Shown: one piece after another, positions 44,536 to 53,342 of the stretch | Numbering within the stretch: the first letter of the stretch is position 1 | Layout: each line of letters starts with the position of its first letter | From: Steroidobacter denitrificans | GTDB taxonomy: Bacteria; Pseudomonadota; Gammaproteobacteria; Steroidobacterales; Steroidobacteraceae | NCBI RefSeq assembly: GCF_001579945.1 | Contig: NZ_CP011971.1 | Span: 3,098,030-3,162,029, forward strand | Length of the DNA: 64,000 nt | Direction: 5' to 3' | The notes under the pieces: generated by a model | What the model was told of the DNA's origin: nothing | Seen by the model: the letters and a program-made list of their open reading frames with translations, nothing else | Databases searched by the model: none | Position numbers and translations under genes: made by a program

Positions 44536-44564
44536 TTGATTATTGCATAATTATGCATTAGACT
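44536..44564 (+). promoter_or_regulatory. sigma-70-like promoter of argR overlapping ARG boxes
   Basis: TTGATT (44536-44541) and TAGACT (44559-44564) lie 17 bases apart, each matching four of six consensus positions. Both ArgR boxes cover this promoter, so bound ArgR would block RNA polymerase. Confidence 0.5.
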
Positions 44565-44579
44565 TGCATTTTTATTCAA
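44542..44579. promoter_or_regulatory. two tandem ARG boxes (ArgR operator)
   Basis: Box 1 has the perfect palindrome TGCATAATTATGCA (44544-44557). Box 2 is TGCATTTTTATTCA (44565-44578). Both fit the TGAAT/ATTCA-type ArgR consensus. Their centres are 21 bp apart, the spacing of paired boxes bound by one ArgR hexamer in E. coli. They predict autoregulation of argR and arginine control of the genes behind it. Confidence 0.85.
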
Positions 44580-44608
44580 AGCGCTATTTTCGAAAGCAAC
44601 GCTCCAGC

Positions 44609-45061
44609 ATGATGGCGGAACTTCATCAATCCGTTTCGCGGCGCGCCGCCATCCTGCGAATCCTGCGGGAGTCGGTGGTGCGCAACCAGGATGAGTTGGT
44701 GAAGGCACTGCACCGGCAGGGTTTCGATGCGACTCAGTCCAGCGTCAGCCGTGATCTGCGTGAACTGGGCGTCGTGAAAGGCGGCGATCGCTATATGGCG
44801 CCTCCGGACGAGCGGGCAGCCGCCAATCCGTTCGCGGCGGTGGCGAATTTCGTCACGGCAGTGCGTACCGCCGGGAGTTCGCTGACCGTGGTGAAGACTA
44901 CGACCGGCACGGCACAGAGCGTCGCCGTGGCGATCGATGCCGCGCAATGGCCGGAAATCGTCGGAACGATTTCCGGCGACGACACGATTTTCATCGCCAC
45001 GAATGAACGGCGCGAGCAGCGGGTGCTGCGTGACCGCCTGCGGGCGATTTTCGGAGTATGA
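44609..45061 (+). CDS. argR: arginine repressor
   Basis: A 150-residue ArgR. The winged-helix DNA-binding half has RRAAILRILRESVVRNQDELVKAL and the hallmark TQSSVSRDLRELGVVK. The C-terminal arginine-binding, hexamer-forming half has TTTGTAQSVAVAIDAAQWPEIVGTISGDDTIFIAT, with the GTISGDDT arginine site. ATG 44609 lies about 30 bases after two ARG boxes; the open frame before it would start inside the boxes. It heads the arginine cluster, with argG 133 bases downstream. Confidence 0.95.
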   Translation: MMAELHQSVSRRAAILRILRESVVRNQDELVKALHRQGFDATQSSVSRDLRELGVVKGGDRYMAPPDERAAANPFAAVANFVTAVRTAGSSLTVVKTTTGTAQSVAVAIDAAQWPEIVGTISGDDTIFIATNERREQRVLRDRLRAIFGV

Positions 45062-45194: not shown

Positions 45195-46442
45195 ATGAGC
45201 GAAGCAGCACCACTACCCGCAGGCGACGAGCCTGTCCTTCTGGCCTTCTCCGGCGGACTGGATACATCCTTCCTGGTGCCCTGGCTGCGCGAAACCCATG
45301 GCCGGCCGATCATCACCATGACCGTGGATACCGGCGGCATCGACGCGCAGGCCGCCAAGGTCCTGGATGAGCGCGCTCGCGCACTGGGCGCACAGGACCA
45401 CATCCTGGTATCCGCCAAGCAGGACTACTTCGAGCAAGTGATCAAGTACCTGATCATGGGCAACGTCAAGCGGGGCCAGATGTATCCGCTGTGCGTGGGT
45501 GCCGAACGCGTCATGCAGGCGCAAACCATCGCGGAGCACGCCCGCCGGCTCGGCACGCACATCGTCGCTCATGGGTGCACCGCCGCGGGCAACGATCAAG
45601 TGCGCTTCGAAGTCGCACTGCGTACCCTGGCGCCGGAGTTGACCATTCTCGCTCCCGTGCGCGATCAGGCCTTCAAGCGCCCCGCACAACTGCAGTATCT
45701 CGAGGAGCGTCAGCTGCCGATCCCGCCCCATGGCGCGGCGTACTCCATCAACCGCGGTCTGTGGGGCGTGACGATCGGCGGCACCGAAACGCTGACCTCC
45801 GAGGGCAGCCTTCCCGAGAGCGCCTGGGTGCTCTCGAAGGATGCCCACATGAATCCCGCCGCCGCCGAATCTCATACGATTGGCTTCGAACGCGGTCTGC
45901 CCTGCAGCCTGGACGGCACGTCTCTCGGCGCGGTCGAAATCATCGAACGGCTGGAAACGATCGGCGCGAAGTTCGGCGTGGGCCGGGGGATCCATCTCGG
46001 CGATACGATCATCGGTACCAAAGGCCGCGTTGCATTCGAGGCGCCGGCCGCAGAAGTGCTGATCAACGCCCATCGCGAACTGGAAAAGCTGGTCATGACC
46101 GGCCGCCAGCAGCGCATCAAGGAAATGCTGTCCGGACCCTACGGCGACCTCGTGCACGAAGGCCAGCACCTGGATCCGGTGTGCCGGGACATCGAGGCGC
46201 TGTTCAGCGCCTCCCAGGCACGTGTCAGCGGCACCGTAAGCGTGTCGTATCGTCCAGGCAGCGCCTTCATCGCCGGCGTCAGCTCGCCCTACTCCCTGAT
46301 GGCGGCGTCCAAGGGCGTCTATGGTGAAGCCGCCGGTGAATGGAGCGCGGCCGACGCGCTGGGTTTCTCCAAGATGCTGGGACTGCCGGGCATGTTCTGG
46401 ATGCGCGCCGGCCGGAACGCCTCCGGGGACTCTTCGACGTGA
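45195..46442 (+). CDS. argG: argininosuccinate synthase
   Basis: A 415-residue cytosolic enzyme joining citrulline and aspartate at the cost of ATP. It has the N-type pyrophosphatase motif AFSGGLDTS near the start and family stretches HGCTAAGNDQVRFEVALR and WGVTIGGTETLTSEG. The start at ATG 45195 (MSEAAPLPAGDEPVLL) is near the conserved domain; the frame is open upstream without protein character. It follows argR and precedes the unknown P-loop gene by 49 bases. Confidence 0.94.
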   Translation: MSEAAPLPAGDEPVLLAFSGGLDTSFLVPWLRETHGRPIITMTVDTGGIDAQAAKVLDERARALGAQDHILVSAKQDYFEQVIKYLIMGNVKRGQMYPLCVGAERVMQAQTIAEHARRLGTHIVAHGCTAAGNDQVRFEVALRTLAPELTILAPVRDQAFKRPAQLQYLEERQLPIPPHGAAYSINRGLWGVTIGGTETLTSEGSLPESAWVLSKDAHMNPAAAESHTIGFERGLPCSLDGTSLGAVEIIERLETIGAKFGVGRGIHLGDTIIGTKGRVAFEAPAAEVLINAHRELEKLVMTGRQQRIKEMLSGPYGDLVHEGQHLDPVCRDIEALFSASQARVSGTVSVSYRPGSAFIAGVSSPYSLMAASKGVYGEAAGEWSAADALGFSKMLGLPGMFWMRAGRNASGDSST

Positions 46443-46491: not shown

Positions 46492-47565
46492 ATGAAAACG
46501 GTCGTCGTCGACAAGATCGGCTCCATCACTCAAGCCCTGAACCTGGGGCATGAGTTACGGGTCGCCACCCGGGATATTCCCTGCGAGGAAGGTGTGGTCC
46601 TGGTCGTGGAGATCCTGACCAGCAAATCGACCTACAACATGCTGGAGCTGAACAGCGGCCGCATGGCCAAGGTCTCCAAGGGCGACATCATCGTCGGTGC
46701 CCTGGGCCATCGCCGCGCACTGTTCGGCTACTCCGGACACATTCCCGCTTCGGTGCAGGCAGGCGACATCATCCAGGTGCTGAACATCGGCGGCGTGCTC
46801 GGTGTGGTCGAGTCGGTGAACCCCGAGAAAGGCCGGCCTTTCGATGCACGGGTCATCGGCATGGTCCTGCAATTTCCCTATCTCGGCGAACGCATCGGCG
46901 TACCGGCACGGGTCGGCTATCAGCGCCTGAATTACGACGCTCCCTTGAACACCCGCGGCGTGCCCATCGTCGCGATGGCTGGAACCTGCATGGAAGCCGG
47001 CAAGACCGCCGCCGCCTGTTCCATCGTTGCCCGCATGCGGCACCGGGGATTGAATGTGCATGCATTCAAGGCCACCGGCGTATCCCTGCGCCGCGACATA
47101 CTGGCGATGGAAGACGCCGGTGCCCGCCGCAGCATGATCTTCACCGATCTAGGCGTCGTGACGACGACCGCGAAAAACGGTCCGGCCATCACTCGCTCGC
47201 TGCTGACCGCCATGTCGGAGGGCAACCCCGACCTGATCATTTTCGAACTCGGGGATGGCCTGCTCGGCGCCTACGGCGTGGAGGCAATTCTGGCCTCGCC
47301 CGACATCAAGGCAGTACTGACGTCCGTCGTACTATGCGCGAACGATCCCGTCGCAGCCTGGGGCGGCGTGAAACTGCTGCGCGAAAAGTTCGGCATCGAG
47401 CCCGCTGTCGTCACTGGCCCGGCCACCGACAATGCTGTCGGCGTGGACATCATTCGCGACCAATTCGGCGTACCCGCGTTCAACGCCATCACGGACGGCG
47501 CTGCGCTGGGCGATCGGGTGATCGAATCGCTGGGCCTGAGTCCTCGGCAGGCAGCCGAACACTGA
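46492..47565 (+). CDS. uncharacterised P-loop protein (dethiobiotin synthase/DUF1611-like) in the arginine operon
   Basis: A 357-residue soluble protein. Residues about 1-160 form a beta-rich domain (KGDIIVGALGHRRALFGYSGHIP, GDIIQVLNIGGVLGVVES). Residues about 163-340 form a P-loop domain with AGTCMEAGKTAAACSIV as Walker A, an FKATGVSLRRDI stretch and an ELGDGLLGAYG motif. The layout resembles dethiobiotin synthase and the DUF1611 family. One DUF1611 member (DgcN) is, as I recall, a D-glutamate N-acetyltransferase. Being between argG and argC, it may supply the missing glutamate acylation step or another arginine-linked step; this is inference. Confidence 0.8.
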   Translation: MKTVVVDKIGSITQALNLGHELRVATRDIPCEEGVVLVVEILTSKSTYNMLELNSGRMAKVSKGDIIVGALGHRRALFGYSGHIPASVQAGDIIQVLNIGGVLGVVESVNPEKGRPFDARVIGMVLQFPYLGERIGVPARVGYQRLNYDAPLNTRGVPIVAMAGTCMEAGKTAAACSIVARMRHRGLNVHAFKATGVSLRRDILAMEDAGARRSMIFTDLGVVTTTAKNGPAITRSLLTAMSEGNPDLIIFELGDGLLGAYGVEAILASPDIKAVLTSVVLCANDPVAAWGGVKLLREKFGIEPAVVTGPATDNAVGVDIIRDQFGVPAFNAITDGAALGDRVIESLGLSPRQAAEH

Positions 47566-47699: not shown

Positions 47700-48767
47700 A
47701 TGATCATGACTGAAAAGATTCCTGCGATCGTCCTGGGCGGTACCGGTTACGTTGCCGGAGAATTGCTGCGTCTGATTGCGGCACACCCCGGCGTCGAACT
47801 GAAGGGCATCTTGTCCGACAGCCAACCCGGTGAACCGCTCGGCAAATGGTTCCCACACCTCGCGCCGGTCTATCCCAATCTGAAATTCTCGGACCTGGAG
47901 ACGATCTCGCGTCTGGCCGCCTCGCTGCCGGCGGCGGCGATCCTGTCCGCAGCGCCGCACGGCGTCGCAGCCGGGCTCATCGATCAGTTGTTGTGCGCGG
48001 CCGAGGCCGGCGGCACGAATCCACGCGTGATCGACATATCGGCGGATTATCGTTACGCCAGTGCCCAGGCCTACGAAGCCGTCTATCCGCATGCGCACGG
48101 CGCGCCTCATCGCGTTGCCCAGTTCACCTGCGCCCTACCGGAACACTTGGAGACGGTGAACACGCCGCATGTCGCCCATCCGGGCTGCTTCTCCACTGCG
48201 GTGCTGCTGCCCAGCGTGCCCTTGCTGAAGCTCGGTCTGATCGAGCCTCGCCTGTTCGTGACAGGCGTGACCGGCAGCACCGGCTCAGGCCGTACACCCA
48301 CGGCCGGCACGCATCATCCGCAGCGCCACAGTGATTTCTATGCTTACAATCCGCTTGCGCACCGGCATGCCCCCGAGATCGCGGCCATTGCGCAGACGGC
48401 CTCCGGCGTGGCTGCCGAGTTCAGCTTCGTTCCTCACTCGGGTCCTTTCGCTCGCGGCATTCACGTCACCGTACAGGCGGTGGCGCGCCGGTCCTTGAAG
48501 ACGCCGGAACTGCTCGACGCCCTGCGCGAGTTTTATCGCGGCAAGCCCTTCGTACGCGTCAGCGGGGCCATGCCGCACGTGAAGGATGTCACGAGCAGCA
48601 ACTATGCCGTCATCGGCGGCGCAGCCAACGGCGGCACGGTGGTATTGACCTGTGTCGAGGATAATTTGACCAAGGGCGCAGCCGGCGGCGCCATACAATG
48701 GCTGAACCGTCTGTTCGGCATCGAGGAAACAGCGGGGCTTACCGCGCCAGCCCCGGGGTGGACCTAA
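47700..48767 (+). CDS. argC: N-acyl-gamma-glutamyl-phosphate reductase
   Basis: A 355-residue NADPH enzyme reducing acylglutamyl phosphate to the semialdehyde. It has the nucleotide motif GGTGYVAGELLRL, the catalytic cysteine in HPGCFSTAVLLP, and VTGSTGSGRTPTAGTHH. ATG 47700 or ATG 47706 are both possible starts. Whether its acyl group is acetyl or succinyl depends on the pathway type (see argF'). It lies 134 bases after the P-loop gene, in a gap with no ARG box. Confidence 0.94.
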   Translation: MIMTEKIPAIVLGGTGYVAGELLRLIAAHPGVELKGILSDSQPGEPLGKWFPHLAPVYPNLKFSDLETISRLAASLPAAAILSAAPHGVAAGLIDQLLCAAEAGGTNPRVIDISADYRYASAQAYEAVYPHAHGAPHRVAQFTCALPEHLETVNTPHVAHPGCFSTAVLLPSVPLLKLGLIEPRLFVTGVTGSTGSGRTPTAGTHHPQRHSDFYAYNPLAHRHAPEIAAIAQTASGVAAEFSFVPHSGPFARGIHVTVQAVARRSLKTPELLDALREFYRGKPFVRVSGAMPHVKDVTSSNYAVIGGAANGGTVVLTCVEDNLTKGAAGGAIQWLNRLFGIEETAGLTAPAPGWT

Positions 48768-48828: not shown

Positions 48829-50070
48829 ATGGAACAGGCGATGCAGGTTGACGTAAAGGCGAATATGACAACGACACAAGACAGATCCGGCAGCCTGCCG
48901 GCTGGGGATGACGTGATCCCCATCGGCAAAGTCTCGCCCGATCATCTCGCGCCGGTCTATGCCCAGGTGCCGCTGGAGGTGCAGGATGCCGAAGGTGTCT
49001 ATCTGCACACGCCCGACGGGCGCAAGGTGCTCGACCTTTACGGCGGCCACGCCGTCGCCGCCTTGGGCTACGGACATCCGCGCTGGCTGCAAGCGCTGAA
49101 TTCACAGGCACGCAGTCTGTGTTTCCAAAGCAATGCCGTACCGTTGGACGTGCGCCGCCGCGCCGCTGCGAAGCTCGCGAATTTCTGCGGTCTCGGACTG
49201 GATACCGTGTTCTTCGTCAACTCCGGCGCGGAAGCGAACGAGAACGCGCTCAAGCTCGCCTGCAGAATGACCGGCGGCACACGCATCGTCGCCGTCGAGG
49301 GCAGCTTTCATGGCCGAAGCGCAGCAGCCGGCGCCGTCACCTGGGGCGCGCGGCAGAAATGGTATGGATTTCCGCAGTTGCCCTTCGACGTTACGTTCAT
49401 CAAACCTTCGGACATGGATCGCCTGGGCACCCTGATCGACGAGCACACCGCAGCGGTCATCGTCGAGCCGGTGCAGGGTGTCGCCGGTGCCGTCGATCTG
49501 CCGAAGGAGTTCCTGCAAGCGCTGCGCCTGCGTTGCAGCGAGAACGGCACGATCCTCATCTTCGATGAAGTGCAATGCGGCGTGGGGCGCACCGGCTATC
49601 CCTTCGCTGCGAACATGTATGAAATAACGCCCGACATCATTACCACCGCCAAGGCGCTCGGCGCGGGCTTTCCCGTTTCGGCCATGCTGCTTGCCGATCA
49701 TGTCGCCGCCTACTGCAAACTCGACGCCATGGGCACCACTTTCGGCGGCGGTCCGCTGGCCTGTGCCGTCGTCGAGGCGGTCATCGATATCATCGACTCC
49801 GAGCAATTGCTGGAAAATGTGCGGCTGCGTTCTGTGCAGATCCGCGAATCCTGTGTGGTCGGACCCATCCTCGGCACGCAAGGCGCCGGACTGCTGCTGG
49901 GCCTGCGCACTTCCAGGCCGGCAAAGGAAGTGCAGTCCGAACTGCTGAAGATGGATATTCTCACCGGCACCAGCGGCGATCCGCACGTGCTGCGCATACT
50001 CGCCCCGTACGTCTTGCAGTCCGAGCACGTAGAGCAGCTGCGGGCAGCACTGCAACGCATCGAGAAGTGA
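48829..50070 (+). CDS. argD: acyl-ornithine aminotransferase
   Basis: A 413-residue class III PLP aminotransferase forming N-acylornithine. It has FFVNSGAEANENALKLA, the HGR stretch GSFHGRSAAAGAVT, the cofactor-binding IFDEVQCGVGRTG and the Schiff-base lysine in TTAKALGAGFP. Starts at 48829, 48841 and 48865 are all in frame; the first is given. Relatives act on acetyl- or succinylornithine and often on succinyldiaminopimelate. It is 61 bases after argC. Confidence 0.93.
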   Translation: MEQAMQVDVKANMTTTQDRSGSLPAGDDVIPIGKVSPDHLAPVYAQVPLEVQDAEGVYLHTPDGRKVLDLYGGHAVAALGYGHPRWLQALNSQARSLCFQSNAVPLDVRRRAAAKLANFCGLGLDTVFFVNSGAEANENALKLACRMTGGTRIVAVEGSFHGRSAAAGAVTWGARQKWYGFPQLPFDVTFIKPSDMDRLGTLIDEHTAAVIVEPVQGVAGAVDLPKEFLQALRLRCSENGTILIFDEVQCGVGRTGYPFAANMYEITPDIITTAKALGAGFPVSAMLLADHVAAYCKLDAMGTTFGGGPLACAVVEAVIDIIDSEQLLENVRLRSVQIRESCVVGPILGTQGAGLLLGLRTSRPAKEVQSELLKMDILTGTSGDPHVLRILAPYVLQSEHVEQLRAALQRIEK

Positions 50071-50112: not shown

Positions 50113-51111
50113 ATGAAAAGATTTCTGGATCTGGCCGACTTTCCACGCGAAGAAGTCAAGGACATGCTCAGCCTCGCCGCGCGTCTGCAACGTCATCCGC
50201 AGCCCAGCGCGCTGGCCGGCAAGGTGCTTGGACTACTGTTCCTGAATCCCTCGCTGCGCACCTTGGCGTCGTTTCAGAGCGCAATGATGCGTCTGGGCGG
50301 CACCACCGTGGTCATCACTCCGGGCCAGGGCACCTGGCAACTGGAAACGCGGCCGGGCGCAGTCATGAACGAGGCGGCCGCCGAACACGTGCGCGAGGCG
50401 GTACCGGTGCTGGCATCCTACTGCGACGCGATCGGCATCCGCATGTTCGCCGAAGGCCGCGATCTGCAGCACGATCTGGCAGAAACCGGCTTCAAGATGA
50501 TGGCAGACCTGTGCGACAAGCCGCTGGTCAACATGGAATCGGCCGCCAACCATCCCTGCCAGGCGCTGGCGGACTGGCGCACGATGGATGACCTGCATGT
50601 GCCCGAGCGCGGCAAATTCGTATTGAGCTGGGTGAATCACCCGCGTGCCCTGCCGCTGGCCGTGCCTGCCGCGACAGTACATATGGCCGCCATGCGCGGC
50701 ATGGAGGTGGTCGTAGCGCGCCCCGAAGGCTATGCCTTGCCGGAGCCGATCATGGAGAAGGCTCGCCAGGCGGCGCAACGCTGCGGCGGATCGGTACGCG
50801 AGACCAGCGATCGTGCCGAAGCACTCAAGGGCGCGCACGTCCTGTACGCAAAGGAATGGGGATCCGCGCAGCACTATGGCGATAGTGAGACGGAAGCCCG
50901 CCTGCGCAAACCGCTCGGCGATTGGTGCGTCGACGAAAGCTGGTTTACGAATGCCGATCCGCACTGCCATTTCATGCACTGCCTGCCCGCACGGCGCAAT
51001 GTCGCCGTCGCCGATGCAGTGCTCGACGGACCACGCAGCGTTGTGATACGCGAAGCGTTCAATCGCATGGTGGTGCAGATGGCGGTGCTGTATCGTCTGC
51101 TGCGCGGCTGA
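50113..51111 (+). CDS. argF': N-acylornithine carbamoyltransferase (succinylornithine type likely)
   Basis: A 332-residue transcarbamylase that makes acylcitrulline from acylornithine and carbamoyl phosphate. It has the phosphate motif NPSLRTLAS (residues 45-53), where the usual second Arg is Leu, and the HCLP motif. It resembles Bacteroides succinylornithine carbamoyltransferase in GQGTWQLETRPGAVM and NHPRALPLAVP. The residue separating acetyl (Glu) from succinyl (Pro) enzymes is Ala90 here, and the Xanthomonas carboxylated lysine is Ala298. Published swaps of that Glu to Ala gave succinylornithine activity, so that substrate is favoured. True ornithine carbamoyltransferase is excluded by the missing SMG loop. 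Confidence 0.88.
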   Translation: MKRFLDLADFPREEVKDMLSLAARLQRHPQPSALAGKVLGLLFLNPSLRTLASFQSAMMRLGGTTVVITPGQGTWQLETRPGAVMNEAAAEHVREAVPVLASYCDAIGIRMFAEGRDLQHDLAETGFKMMADLCDKPLVNMESAANHPCQALADWRTMDDLHVPERGKFVLSWVNHPRALPLAVPAATVHMAAMRGMEVVVARPEGYALPEPIMEKARQAAQRCGGSVRETSDRAEALKGAHVLYAKEWGSAQHYGDSETEARLRKPLGDWCVDESWFTNADPHCHFMHCLPARRNVAVADAVLDGPRSVVIREAFNRMVVQMAVLYRLLRG

Positions 51112-51219: not shown

Positions 51220-52140
51220 GTGATTCGTATCGACCCTTCTGTTGCCATTCGCGCCCTGCGCAGTGCCGCACCGTACATTCGCATGTACAAGGGCAAGGTC
51301 TTCGTGATCAAGGTCAGCGGCGGCGTCTTCGGAGACGCCGCGTCGACGCACAACTTGATGGAACAAGTGGCGATCCTGCATCAGGTCGGCATCCGCGTGG
51401 TGCTGGTGCACGGAGGCGGCCCACAGCTGACGCAGGTCCAGAAGTCGCTCGGCATCGAGCCGCAAATCGTCGCCGGCCGCCGGATCACCGACCAGAAATC
51501 CATCGAAGTGACCAGCATGGTTCTCAACGGCCTGGTGAACACCCGGATACTTGGAATTTGCCGCGAGCTGGATATTGCCGCAGTCGGGGTCAGCGGCGTC
51601 GACGCCGGACTGGTGCGCGCCCACAAGCGACCGCCGGTCAAAGTTGAAGGACGGCTCGTCGATTATGGCTATGTCGGCGATATCGATCTGATCGATGCCA
51701 AGGTTTTGCAACAGCTGCTCGATGAAAGGCTGATGCCGGTGGTCAGCCCGGTGTCCGCCGACGACCAAGGCACGCTGCTCAACATCAACGCCGATACGGT
51801 GGCGGCCGGGATCGGCGCGGCCTTGAAGGCCGAAAAACTGATGCTATGCACCGGCGCACCGGGCATCCTTGAATCCGTGGACGATCCTTGCTCGATCATT
51901 TCCTACACCGATCTGACCGGCCTGCAGCGCCTGAAGGAGCAGGGCAGCCTCAAGGACGGCATGCTGCCCAAGGCCAAGGCAATCGAGGACGCCATACGCG
52001 GTGGAGTACGGCGTGTGCACGTGACTTCCTATAAATCTCCCGACAGCCTGCTCGCGGAAGTTTTCACGAACGAAGGCACCGGCACCCTGGTCGTCGAGAA
52101 CATCAGCGCCCTTTCACCTGCAGAGCAGCAAGCCGGATGA
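51220..52140 (+). CDS. argB: N-acylglutamate kinase
   Basis: A 306-residue amino acid kinase phosphorylating acylglutamate. It has FVIKVSGGVFGD at the phosphate site, VLVHGGGPQLTQ, and NINADTVAAGIGAALKAEKLMLCTG. GTG 51220 is marked by AGAGGA nine bases upstream. An N-terminal helix (IDPSVAIRALRSAAPYIRMYKG), as in arginine-inhibited kinases, suggests feedback control. There is no fused acetyltransferase domain, unlike the Xanthomonas bifunctional enzyme. It overlaps argH by four bases. Confidence 0.94.
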   Translation: MIRIDPSVAIRALRSAAPYIRMYKGKVFVIKVSGGVFGDAASTHNLMEQVAILHQVGIRVVLVHGGGPQLTQVQKSLGIEPQIVAGRRITDQKSIEVTSMVLNGLVNTRILGICRELDIAAVGVSGVDAGLVRAHKRPPVKVEGRLVDYGYVGDIDLIDAKVLQQLLDERLMPVVSPVSADDQGTLLNINADTVAAGIGAALKAEKLMLCTGAPGILESVDDPCSIISYTDLTGLQRLKEQGSLKDGMLPKAKAIEDAIRGGVRRVHVTSYKSPDSLLAEVFTNEGTGTLVVENISALSPAEQQAG

Positions 52141-53342
52141 GCCGCCTGTGGGACAAAGGCGCGCCGCTGGATGAGCGTGTCCTGCGCTATACGGCAGGCG
52201 AAGATCATGCGCTGGACAACCGCCTGGTCGCCTACGACGTGCGCGCCTCGATCGCGCATGCGCAGATGCTGCATGCGCAAGGGCTGCTGCCGGCCGCCGA
52301 CCTGGAAGCGATTCGTAGCGGCTTGACTGCCATCGCCGTGGAACATGCCCGCGGCGAATGGCAGGTACGGCTGGAACACGAGGATGGTCAGACGGCATTG
52401 GAGAACCTGCTCACTCAGCGTATCGGCGAGGCAGGCAAGCGCGTACATCTAGGCCGGTCCCGCAATGATCAGGTACTGACCGCCTTGCGGTTGTATTTGC
52501 GCGACGCCGCCGACGCACTGGCAGCAGGCGTCGATGCCGTCGCCGAGGCGCTGGAGAACCTGGCCCGGCGTGACGCCTCGATCGAGCTGCCCGGATATAC
52601 CCACATGCAGCAGGCCATGCCCAGCTCCGTGCCGCTATGGGCGAATGGCTTCGCCGCCGAACTGCGCGACGATGCCCAGGGACTGCGCCAGACGCATCGG
52701 CGTCTGCGGGCGAACCCCCTGGGCTCCGCGGCGGGTTACGGCTCGCCTAATCTGCCGATCGATCGAGAGGACACCCGTGAGCAGCTGGGCTTCGAGACGG
52801 TGCAGATGCCGGTCACGGCCGTGCAGCTATCGCGCGGCAAGGCCGAAGCGCAGCTGCTGTTCGAAATCGCCCTGGTCATGCAGGACGTTGCCCGGCTGTC
52901 CGCCGATTTGCTGTTGTTCTACACCCAGGAGTTCTCGTTCGTGGCGCTGCCGGACGCCTTTACGACCGGCTCCTCGATCATGCCGCAAAAACGCAATCCC
53001 GACGTATTCGAGCTGATTCGCGGCCGCAGCGCGACGGCCATGGCCTGTCTCGCGGAGGTCATGGGTATCGTCGCCAAGCTGCCTTCCGGTTATCAGCGCG
53101 ATCTGCAGCTCATCAAGGCGCCGTTGTTTCGCAGCATCGATCTGTGCATGGAAACGTTGGATATACTTCCCGCGGCGCTGGCCGGCGTACGGTTCCGTCC
53201 GGAAAAGATTCGCCTGGATCCCTCCATCCACGCCGCCGCCGAGGCGAATGCGCTGGTCGTGAACGAGGGCATCTCCTTCCGGGAAGCATACCGTCGTATC
53301 GGCGAGCGATTGAAACAAGACGCCGGCAAGACGCCGAAATGA
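52137..53342 (+). CDS. argH: argininosuccinate lyase
   Basis: A 401-residue enzyme splitting argininosuccinate into arginine and fumarate. It has HLGRSRNDQVLTALRLYLRD, the catalytic-loop signature GSSIMPQKRNPD of the fumarase/aspartase superfamily, and YTHMQQAMPSSVPLWA. At 401 residues it is shorter than E. coli ArgH (457), mainly at the C-terminus. ATG 52137 overlaps the argB stop, so translation is coupled. It is the last gene of the arginine cluster. Confidence 0.94.
   Translation: MSRLWDKGAPLDERVLRYTAGEDHALDNRLVAYDVRASIAHAQMLHAQGLLPAADLEAIRSGLTAIAVEHARGEWQVRLEHEDGQTALENLLTQRIGEAGKRVHLGRSRNDQVLTALRLYLRDAADALAAGVDAVAEALENLARRDASIELPGYTHMQQAMPSSVPLWANGFAAELRDDAQGLRQTHRRLRANPLGSAAGYGSPNLPIDREDTREQLGFETVQMPVTAVQLSRGKAEAQLLFEIALVMQDVARLSADLLLFYTQEFSFVALPDAFTTGSSIMPQKRNPDVFELIRGRSATAMACLAEVMGIVAKLPSGYQRDLQLIKAPLFRSIDLCMETLDILPAALAGVRFRPEKIRLDPSIHAAAEANALVVNEGISFREAYRRIGERLKQDAGKTPK

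Follow-up and report, generated by a model that had tools for sequence, protein, structure and literature searches.

Bacteria are known to take the first step of arginine synthesis in several ways: with ArgA-type or NAT-type acetyltransferases, with ArgJ, or by the LysW route. A further enzyme of glutamate metabolism, the DUF1611 protein DgcN, is presumably a CoA-dependent D-glutamate N-acetyltransferase, and we take it to be the nearest characterised relative of the protein described here. Passages in two papers, one of them PMC12363236, describe a DgcN-DgcA route from D- to L-glutamate. For the carbamoyltransferases that act on acylated ornithine, sections of one review (PMC4581275) give Glu92, Asn185, and Lys302 as the marks of acetylornithine carbamoyltransferase (the Xanthomonas enzyme), and A, S, P, V, or Q at 92, P at 185, and V, I, or E at 302 as those of the succinylornithine enzyme. 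Parts of the GapMind report (PMC7311316) state that in the Bacteroides enzyme position 90 alone can switch specificity, S, P, A, or V denoting the succinyl type, and likewise name a DapE-related protein for desuccinylation.

The locus considered here lies in a stretch of 64,000 nucleotides, called the window, from a single-contig genome of 3,467,246 bases (the source genome). Its arginine genes stand in the order argR-argG-X-argC-argD-argF'-argB-argH, all on the + strand, where X is the gene of interest and argF' encodes the carbamoyltransferase:

44542..44580, + strand: two ARG-box-like sites (44542-44559 and 44563-44580) upstream of argR, found by pattern search
44609..45061, + strand: argR, arginine repressor (PF02863 and PF01316 over cut-off)
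45195..46442, + strand: argG, argininosuccinate synthase (TIGR00032 over cut-off)
46492..47565, + strand: X, P-loop protein of 357 amino acids, proposed N-succinyl-L-glutamate synthase (translation of the open reading frame, operon place, exclusion pattern)
46981..47007, + strand: P-loop codons of X, residues 164-172, GTCMEAGKT (alignment of 38 rows, X and paralogues)
47700..48767, + strand: argC, N-acylglutamyl-phosphate reductase (TIGR01850 over cut-off)
48829..50070, + strand: argD, acylornithine transaminase family (TIGR00707 the best match, under its cut-off)
50113..51111, + strand: argF', carbamoyltransferase with succinylornithine-type residues (NF003384, residue alignment)
50380, 50653, and 51004, + strand: diagnostic codons of argF', Ala90, Pro181, and, at the third site, Ala298
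51220..52140, + strand: argB, N-acylglutamate kinase without an acetyltransferase domain (domain scan)
52137..53342, + strand: argH, argininosuccinate lyase (TIGR00838 over cut-off)

The gene that an earlier note on this DNA placed between argG and argC is real: its frame is intact, translates without a stop for 357 amino acids, follows the argG stop (46442) at a distance of 49 bases, and shares its strand with six further arg enzyme genes, with argR upstream. The ArgR boxes that the note placed ahead of the operon are borne out by the two ARG-box-like sites, each with two mismatches; with up to three mismatches allowed, the pattern occurs 5 times in the window, where 0.63 occurrences would be expected. 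The operon's carbamoyltransferase is of the acylornithine type (NF003384, 342 bits against a cut-off of 288), so that the acyl group should come off at the level of acylcitrulline. The remark that the cluster holds no argA, argJ, or fused acetyltransferase extends to the source genome, in which ArgJ (PF01960) has no match, ArgB has a kinase domain only, the ArgA model (TIGR01890) picks up nothing but ArgB, and no ArgE exceeds its cut-off.

All 14 genomes of the genus carry X; among named genomes, the closest X proteins are those of Steroidobacter and Peristeroidobacter (85-86%). Within the order some X match occurs in 115 of 147 genomes, six of which hold only a remote paralogue, leaving 109 with X; among 398 genomes across the phylum, X orthologues occur in two, the source genome and one here called G426, with remote paralogues in three more. 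The gene neighbourhood was compared across genomes, as the earlier note had proposed. In 40 loci fetched from the 109 genomes with X, chosen to spread over genera and read for the searched genes only, X lies directly upstream of argC every time (40/40) and directly downstream of argG in 39, the exception (L053) having X-argC-argB divergent from argR-argG-argF'-argH. A scan of named genomes found 528 relatives, of which the best 80 were read (7 of these share an identical X with the set of 40); it gave X followed by argC in 79, the other locus (L160) stopping at a contig edge, and argG before X in 79, the other (L120) having argR directly before X. L120 (8391-12129) reads argR-X-argC with argG missing, then a 49-codon match to the end of argF', then argB to the contig end; its operon seems to be decaying or rearranged while X-argC-argB stays together.

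X and an acetyltransferase domain on ArgB exclude each other within the order. We told the ArgB types apart in the 147 genomes by the scores of the ArgA model, which detects ArgB and whose own cut-off no genome of the 147 passed; ArgJ was likewise found in 0/147, with a positive control that matched in 10 of 14 known genomes. Kinase-only ArgB reaches 129-172 bits, matched along its kinase part, and, beside X, is 305-320 amino acids long (100 untruncated of 103). The fused type scores 69-96 bits in longer frames, measuring 415-449 amino acids in the 16 loci fetched (one truncated), and the three long ArgBs that were scanned have a NAT acetyltransferase domain at 144-156 bits. This fused protein is presumably the Xanthomonas-type N-acetylglutamate synthase/kinase. 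X accompanies kinase-only ArgB in 108 genomes, an ArgB in two low-scoring pieces in one (G120), and the fused type in none; fused ArgB without X occurs in 19, neither an ArgB match nor X in 14, and kinase-only ArgB without X in two, with two fragments lacking X and one genome giving weak matches only (G137) set aside in the tally. Neither of the two kinase-only genomes is a clear exception, since the sequence of each breaks off at or short of the place for X: one contig starts 62 bases before argC, and the other, of 4.5 kb, ends at argD. The exclusion pattern follows families, with one split inside a family (f7), so that only a small number of independent events underlies the 147 genomes.

The operons without X have a different composition. 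Their typical order is argF'-argG-argE-argB-argC-argH, and an M20 (ArgE-type) gene stands directly before the fused argB in 15 of 16 such loci (12 found with a DapE query and three more with the ArgE model; L202 has none); this ArgE-type gene is absent from the X operons. The genomes with neither ArgB nor X are G022, G026, G036, G039, G048, G051, G054, G059, G063, G069, G073, G088, G105, and G110; those of family f13, with assemblies of 1.1-1.5 Mb, may be arginine auxotrophs.

The residues of ArgF' bear on the nature of the acyl group. We aligned 105 ArgF' rows (98 distinct) from 120 X loci, of which 15 were truncated or lacked the full gene, and compared them with 15 rows from 16 loci without X. 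Beside X, the residue at Xc92 is Ala in 105/105 and that at Xc185 is Pro in 105/105; the third site (Xc302) is Ala in 79 and Val in 26, never Lys, the window having Ala here where the published succinyl list has V, I, or E. In the operons without X the first two sites are Glu (15/15) and Asn (15/15), and the third is Lys in 13 and Gln in two. The window's ArgF' thus has succinylornithine-type residues at both Xc92 (Ala) and Xc185 (Pro), and its best PDB match, 3l02, has Ala where 3m4n has Glu. Ala and Pro also occur in a further X genome (G127) and in both of the contig-edge genomes. Judged by these residues, the X operon looks built for succinylornithine, and since they are of the succinyl type, succinylglutamate would be the expected product of step 1.

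One genome without X, G054, has two such enzymes: one shows Glu, Asn, and Lys at these sites, the other, which is more remote, Gln, Pro, and Ser. The latter is a carbamoyltransferase-like protein (L216, G054:C244, 524-1603), 46% identical to that of the window and adjoining a gene that resembles lysA; it lies on a contig of 3.4 kb and is uninformative on the question of X.

A case from another class of the phylum narrows down the step. In G426, argR-X-argC-argB form one block, with an X that is 73% identical, and argG-argF-argH are located elsewhere; the carbamoyltransferase is of the ordinary type (151 bits against the ArgF' cut-off of 288). ArgJ is missing from G426, but all 23 further family members that were sampled (23/23) have it; none of these holds an X orthologue, one having a remote paralogue. 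Since X here accompanies argC and argB but not ArgF', G426 places the work of X at the N-acylglutamate stage. Four of 16 sampled relatives outside the family have neither ArgJ nor an X orthologue, so that a genome without ArgJ need not have X. Misbinning of the X contig is not favoured: its tetranucleotide profile correlates at 0.82 with G426's own argG-argF-argH locus (0.85 for the arg part), and at no more than 0.51 with nine loci of the window's order (arg part at most 0.50, the rest of the stretch at most 0.57), so that its composition agrees with G426's own DNA.

The family of X is harder to name. The P-loop, AGTCMEAGKTA, occupies residues 163-173, but no Pfam or NCBIfam model scores over its cut-off; DUF1611 (PF07755) is the best Pfam match at 17.3 against 25 bits, and MobB (PF03205) reaches 16.2 against 26.6. 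The models of the ArgA, ArgJ, and NAT types (TIGR01890, PF01960, and PF04768) are not matched by X, the NCBIfam model for dethiobiotin synthetase is absent among its matches up to E 1, and neither the sequence, nor profile A1, nor a paralogue retrieved a significant relative among PDB chains. Because 32 of 39 X orthologues match MobB at E ≤0.1 (best 7.5e-6) and 17 of 39 match DUF1611 at the same limit (best 0.00032), X by itself does not single out one named family as the nearest. A paralogue provides the support for homology to DUF1611: the order has X paralogues at 27-33% identity, the one member of class P1 that was scanned (L085) passes the DUF1611 cut-off with 27.8 bits, and the P1 class profile matches X at E 1e-38 over 300 columns. 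The DUF1611 P-loop pattern GxxxxGKT in the C-terminal domain is also present in X (GTCMEAGKT, 164-172). The earlier description of a DUF1611-like P-loop domain thus holds for the motif and for homology through the passing paralogue, although X itself stays under the cut-off.

Alignment of X with both paralogue classes (38 rows) shows Gly164, Gly170, Lys171, and Thr172 of the P-loop to be invariant, together with Lys193, Asp202, Asp219, and Glu252. In the A2 tree the 22 X rows group together, with a weakly supported midpoint root (0.562), and the P1 and P2 clades each have a support of 1.0. An AlphaFold model of X, built on 43 sequences (mean pLDDT 72.2, pTM 0.65), is reliable for the P-loop domain only, all ten-residue blocks from 151 to 350 lying at 71-96; from residue 1 to 140, 12 of 14 blocks fall under pLDDT 70. 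The N-terminal domain, described earlier as beta-rich, is predicted to be so, but at a confidence too low for a fold to be claimed. Foldseek matches of the model (FtsY, Ffh, dethiobiotin synthetase, HypB, and CTP synthetase) belong to one broad P-loop fold class; the DUF1611 protein 2obn comes at rank 50, with the lowest rmsd (4.8) among the 50 best rows. The best PDB match of the A2 profile is dethiobiotin synthetase, a weak one (E 0.011) in which the P-loop, Lys193, and Asp202 align.

The relatives of X occur in varied surroundings. Among the paralogue loci L083-L102 and L204, P1 members adjoin a gene resembling M20 peptidases in 10 of the 14 included in alignment A4, an arrangement that fits acylation followed by deacylation and proves nothing; with the same query no M20 gene was found in the seven loci fetched for class P2, whose members match MobB weakly. 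Two Rhodobacterales plasmids carry DUF1611 genes followed by one for an ABC transporter ATP-binding protein. On a Priestia megaterium plasmid (L230, NZ_CP085446.1, 1730-10418), a remote X relative (26.5%) is found in a cluster with an ornithine carbamoyltransferase, two ATP-grasp proteins, thiamine-diphosphate enzyme genes, an M20 peptidase, and a PEP-mutase-family gene; this looks like a cluster for phosphonate-peptide biosynthesis, perhaps with a protective carbamoyltransferase.

We propose, with a probability of about 0.68, that X is an N-succinyl-L-glutamate synthase, which in steroid degraders and related bacteria would open an arginine pathway with succinylated intermediates, taking the place of the acetyltransferase. 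X would succinylate L-glutamate at its amino group; ArgB, ArgC, and ArgD would convert N-succinylglutamate to N-succinylornithine, which ArgF' would carbamoylate; a deacylase, probably DapE doing double duty, would free citrulline; and ArgG and ArgH would complete arginine synthesis. The most likely donor is succinyl-CoA, a transfer we favour by analogy because DgcN presumably acetylates D-glutamate in a CoA-dependent manner. The earlier suggestion of an arginine step at which X acylates glutamate is strengthened by the operon place, the exclusion with fused ArgB, and G426, while the reaction itself, like the donor and the part given to DapE, is what we infer. Between the acetyl- and succinyl-CoA that the note had offered, the ArgF' residues point to succinyl, and acetyl is not favoured.

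A pathway that remains acetylated, with X as an N-acetylglutamate synthase, would accord with the exclusion and with the presumed activity of DgcN, both of which agree with any N-acylglutamate synthase; we nevertheless consider it improbable, given that 105 of 105 ArgF' proteins beside X are of the succinylornithine type at two diagnostic positions and that the ArgE-type gene found before fused argB in 15 of 16 loci without X is absent from X operons. Equally doubtful to us is that X is an accessory protein, a regulator, chaperone, or channel for ArgB and ArgC, with an unrecognised GNAT elsewhere acylating glutamate: its fold class does include metallochaperones (HypB), but such a role sits poorly with the mutual exclusion of X and the fused acetyltransferase type and with the presence of X without ArgJ in G426. 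The reading of X as a flux regulator, also raised in the earlier note, is not favoured.

The donor might also be free succinate. X would then be an ATP-dependent succinate:L-glutamate ligase working in the manner of dethiobiotin synthetase, with succinate phosphorylated at the P-loop and attacked by the glutamate amine, and no CoA involved. We regard this as unlikely. In its favour, the fold matches include dethiobiotin synthetase, HypB, and CTP synthetase, the A2 profile finds dethiobiotin synthetase best with P-loop, Lys193, and Asp202 aligned, and the P-loop Lys and Thr are invariant along with Lys193, Asp202, Asp219, and Glu252. These fold and sequence matches are weak, however; the P-loop could hold the phosphates of CoA instead, and DgcN, the nearest characterised relative, is presumably a CoA-dependent N-acetyltransferase. 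Were the ligase real, arginine synthesis would start by carboxylate phosphorylation, not thioester acyl transfer, and one DapE would be common to the lysine and arginine pathways.

Whichever donor X uses, the succinyl group would have to be removed. Three loci in the source genome match the M20 family: a DapE equivalog (559 bits against a cut-off of 284), a dipeptidase-like protein under its cut-offs, and a protein of 607 amino acids with a short match that by eye resembles an M28-type peptidase. DapE is therefore the only ArgE/DapE-type deacylase recognised there; across the order 25 of 147 genomes have an ArgE over the cut-off, and 16 of these belong to the 109 with X. DapE removes succinyl groups in lysine synthesis, and for that reason we suggest, as an economical guess, that it probably removes the succinyl group from N-succinylcitrulline as well. 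The gap in deacylation seen earlier is not explained by X, and DapE is the candidate.

Among the papers listed in a literature search that covered few subscription journals, none described an enzyme of this kind or a succinylated pathway in this order, and the parts consulted of a 2018 gap-filling paper (PMC5764234) hold nothing on step 1 of arginine synthesis. Sections of PMC12363236 report Woeseiales as dgcN carriers in Mariana Trench samples; if proteins of the X or P1 type exist there and were counted as dgcN, arginine genes could be misassigned to D-glutamate use. Should our proposal for X be correct, a P-loop enzyme would be another solution to arginine step 1, the succinylated pathway described for Bacteroidetes would extend to a gammaproteobacterial order, and an annotation gap would be filled in the genomes with X (109 of the 147 sampled in the order). 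It would also assign a physiological role to a branch of the DUF1611-like proteins, about which little is known, and suggest that DapE is common to two pathways.

Among known systems, the Xanthomonas-type fused ArgB fills step 1 in the operons without X of the same order, but does so with an acetyltransferase domain (PF04768) fused to the kinase, a domain that X does not match, and comes with an acetyl-type ArgF'. Dethiobiotin synthetase (BioD) shares the broad P-loop fold class and the aligned P-loop, Lys, and Asp positions; X differs in its extra N-terminal region and in having no biotin context, and the sequence match is weak. With DUF1611 and DgcN, X shares the P-loop domain, paralogues that align over 300 columns (the one scanned passes the DUF1611 cut-off), and 2obn among its fold matches, although X stays under the family cut-off, has no DUF1611 N-terminal family among its listed matches, and lies in an arginine operon. 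The first enzyme proposed for Bacteroides, BT3761, and the N-acetylglutamate synthase Cabys_1732 we take to be of the GNAT type. As described in parts of PMC7311316, the succinylated pathway of Bacteroides (BT3761, BT3717) resembles the one proposed here in the succinyl-type residue of ArgF' at position 90/92, in a proposed DapE-related desuccinylase, and in that no ArgA or ArgJ was identified; its BT3761, however, is more than 50% identical to Cabys_1732, whereas the first enzyme here would be a P-loop protein, in a gammaproteobacterial order.
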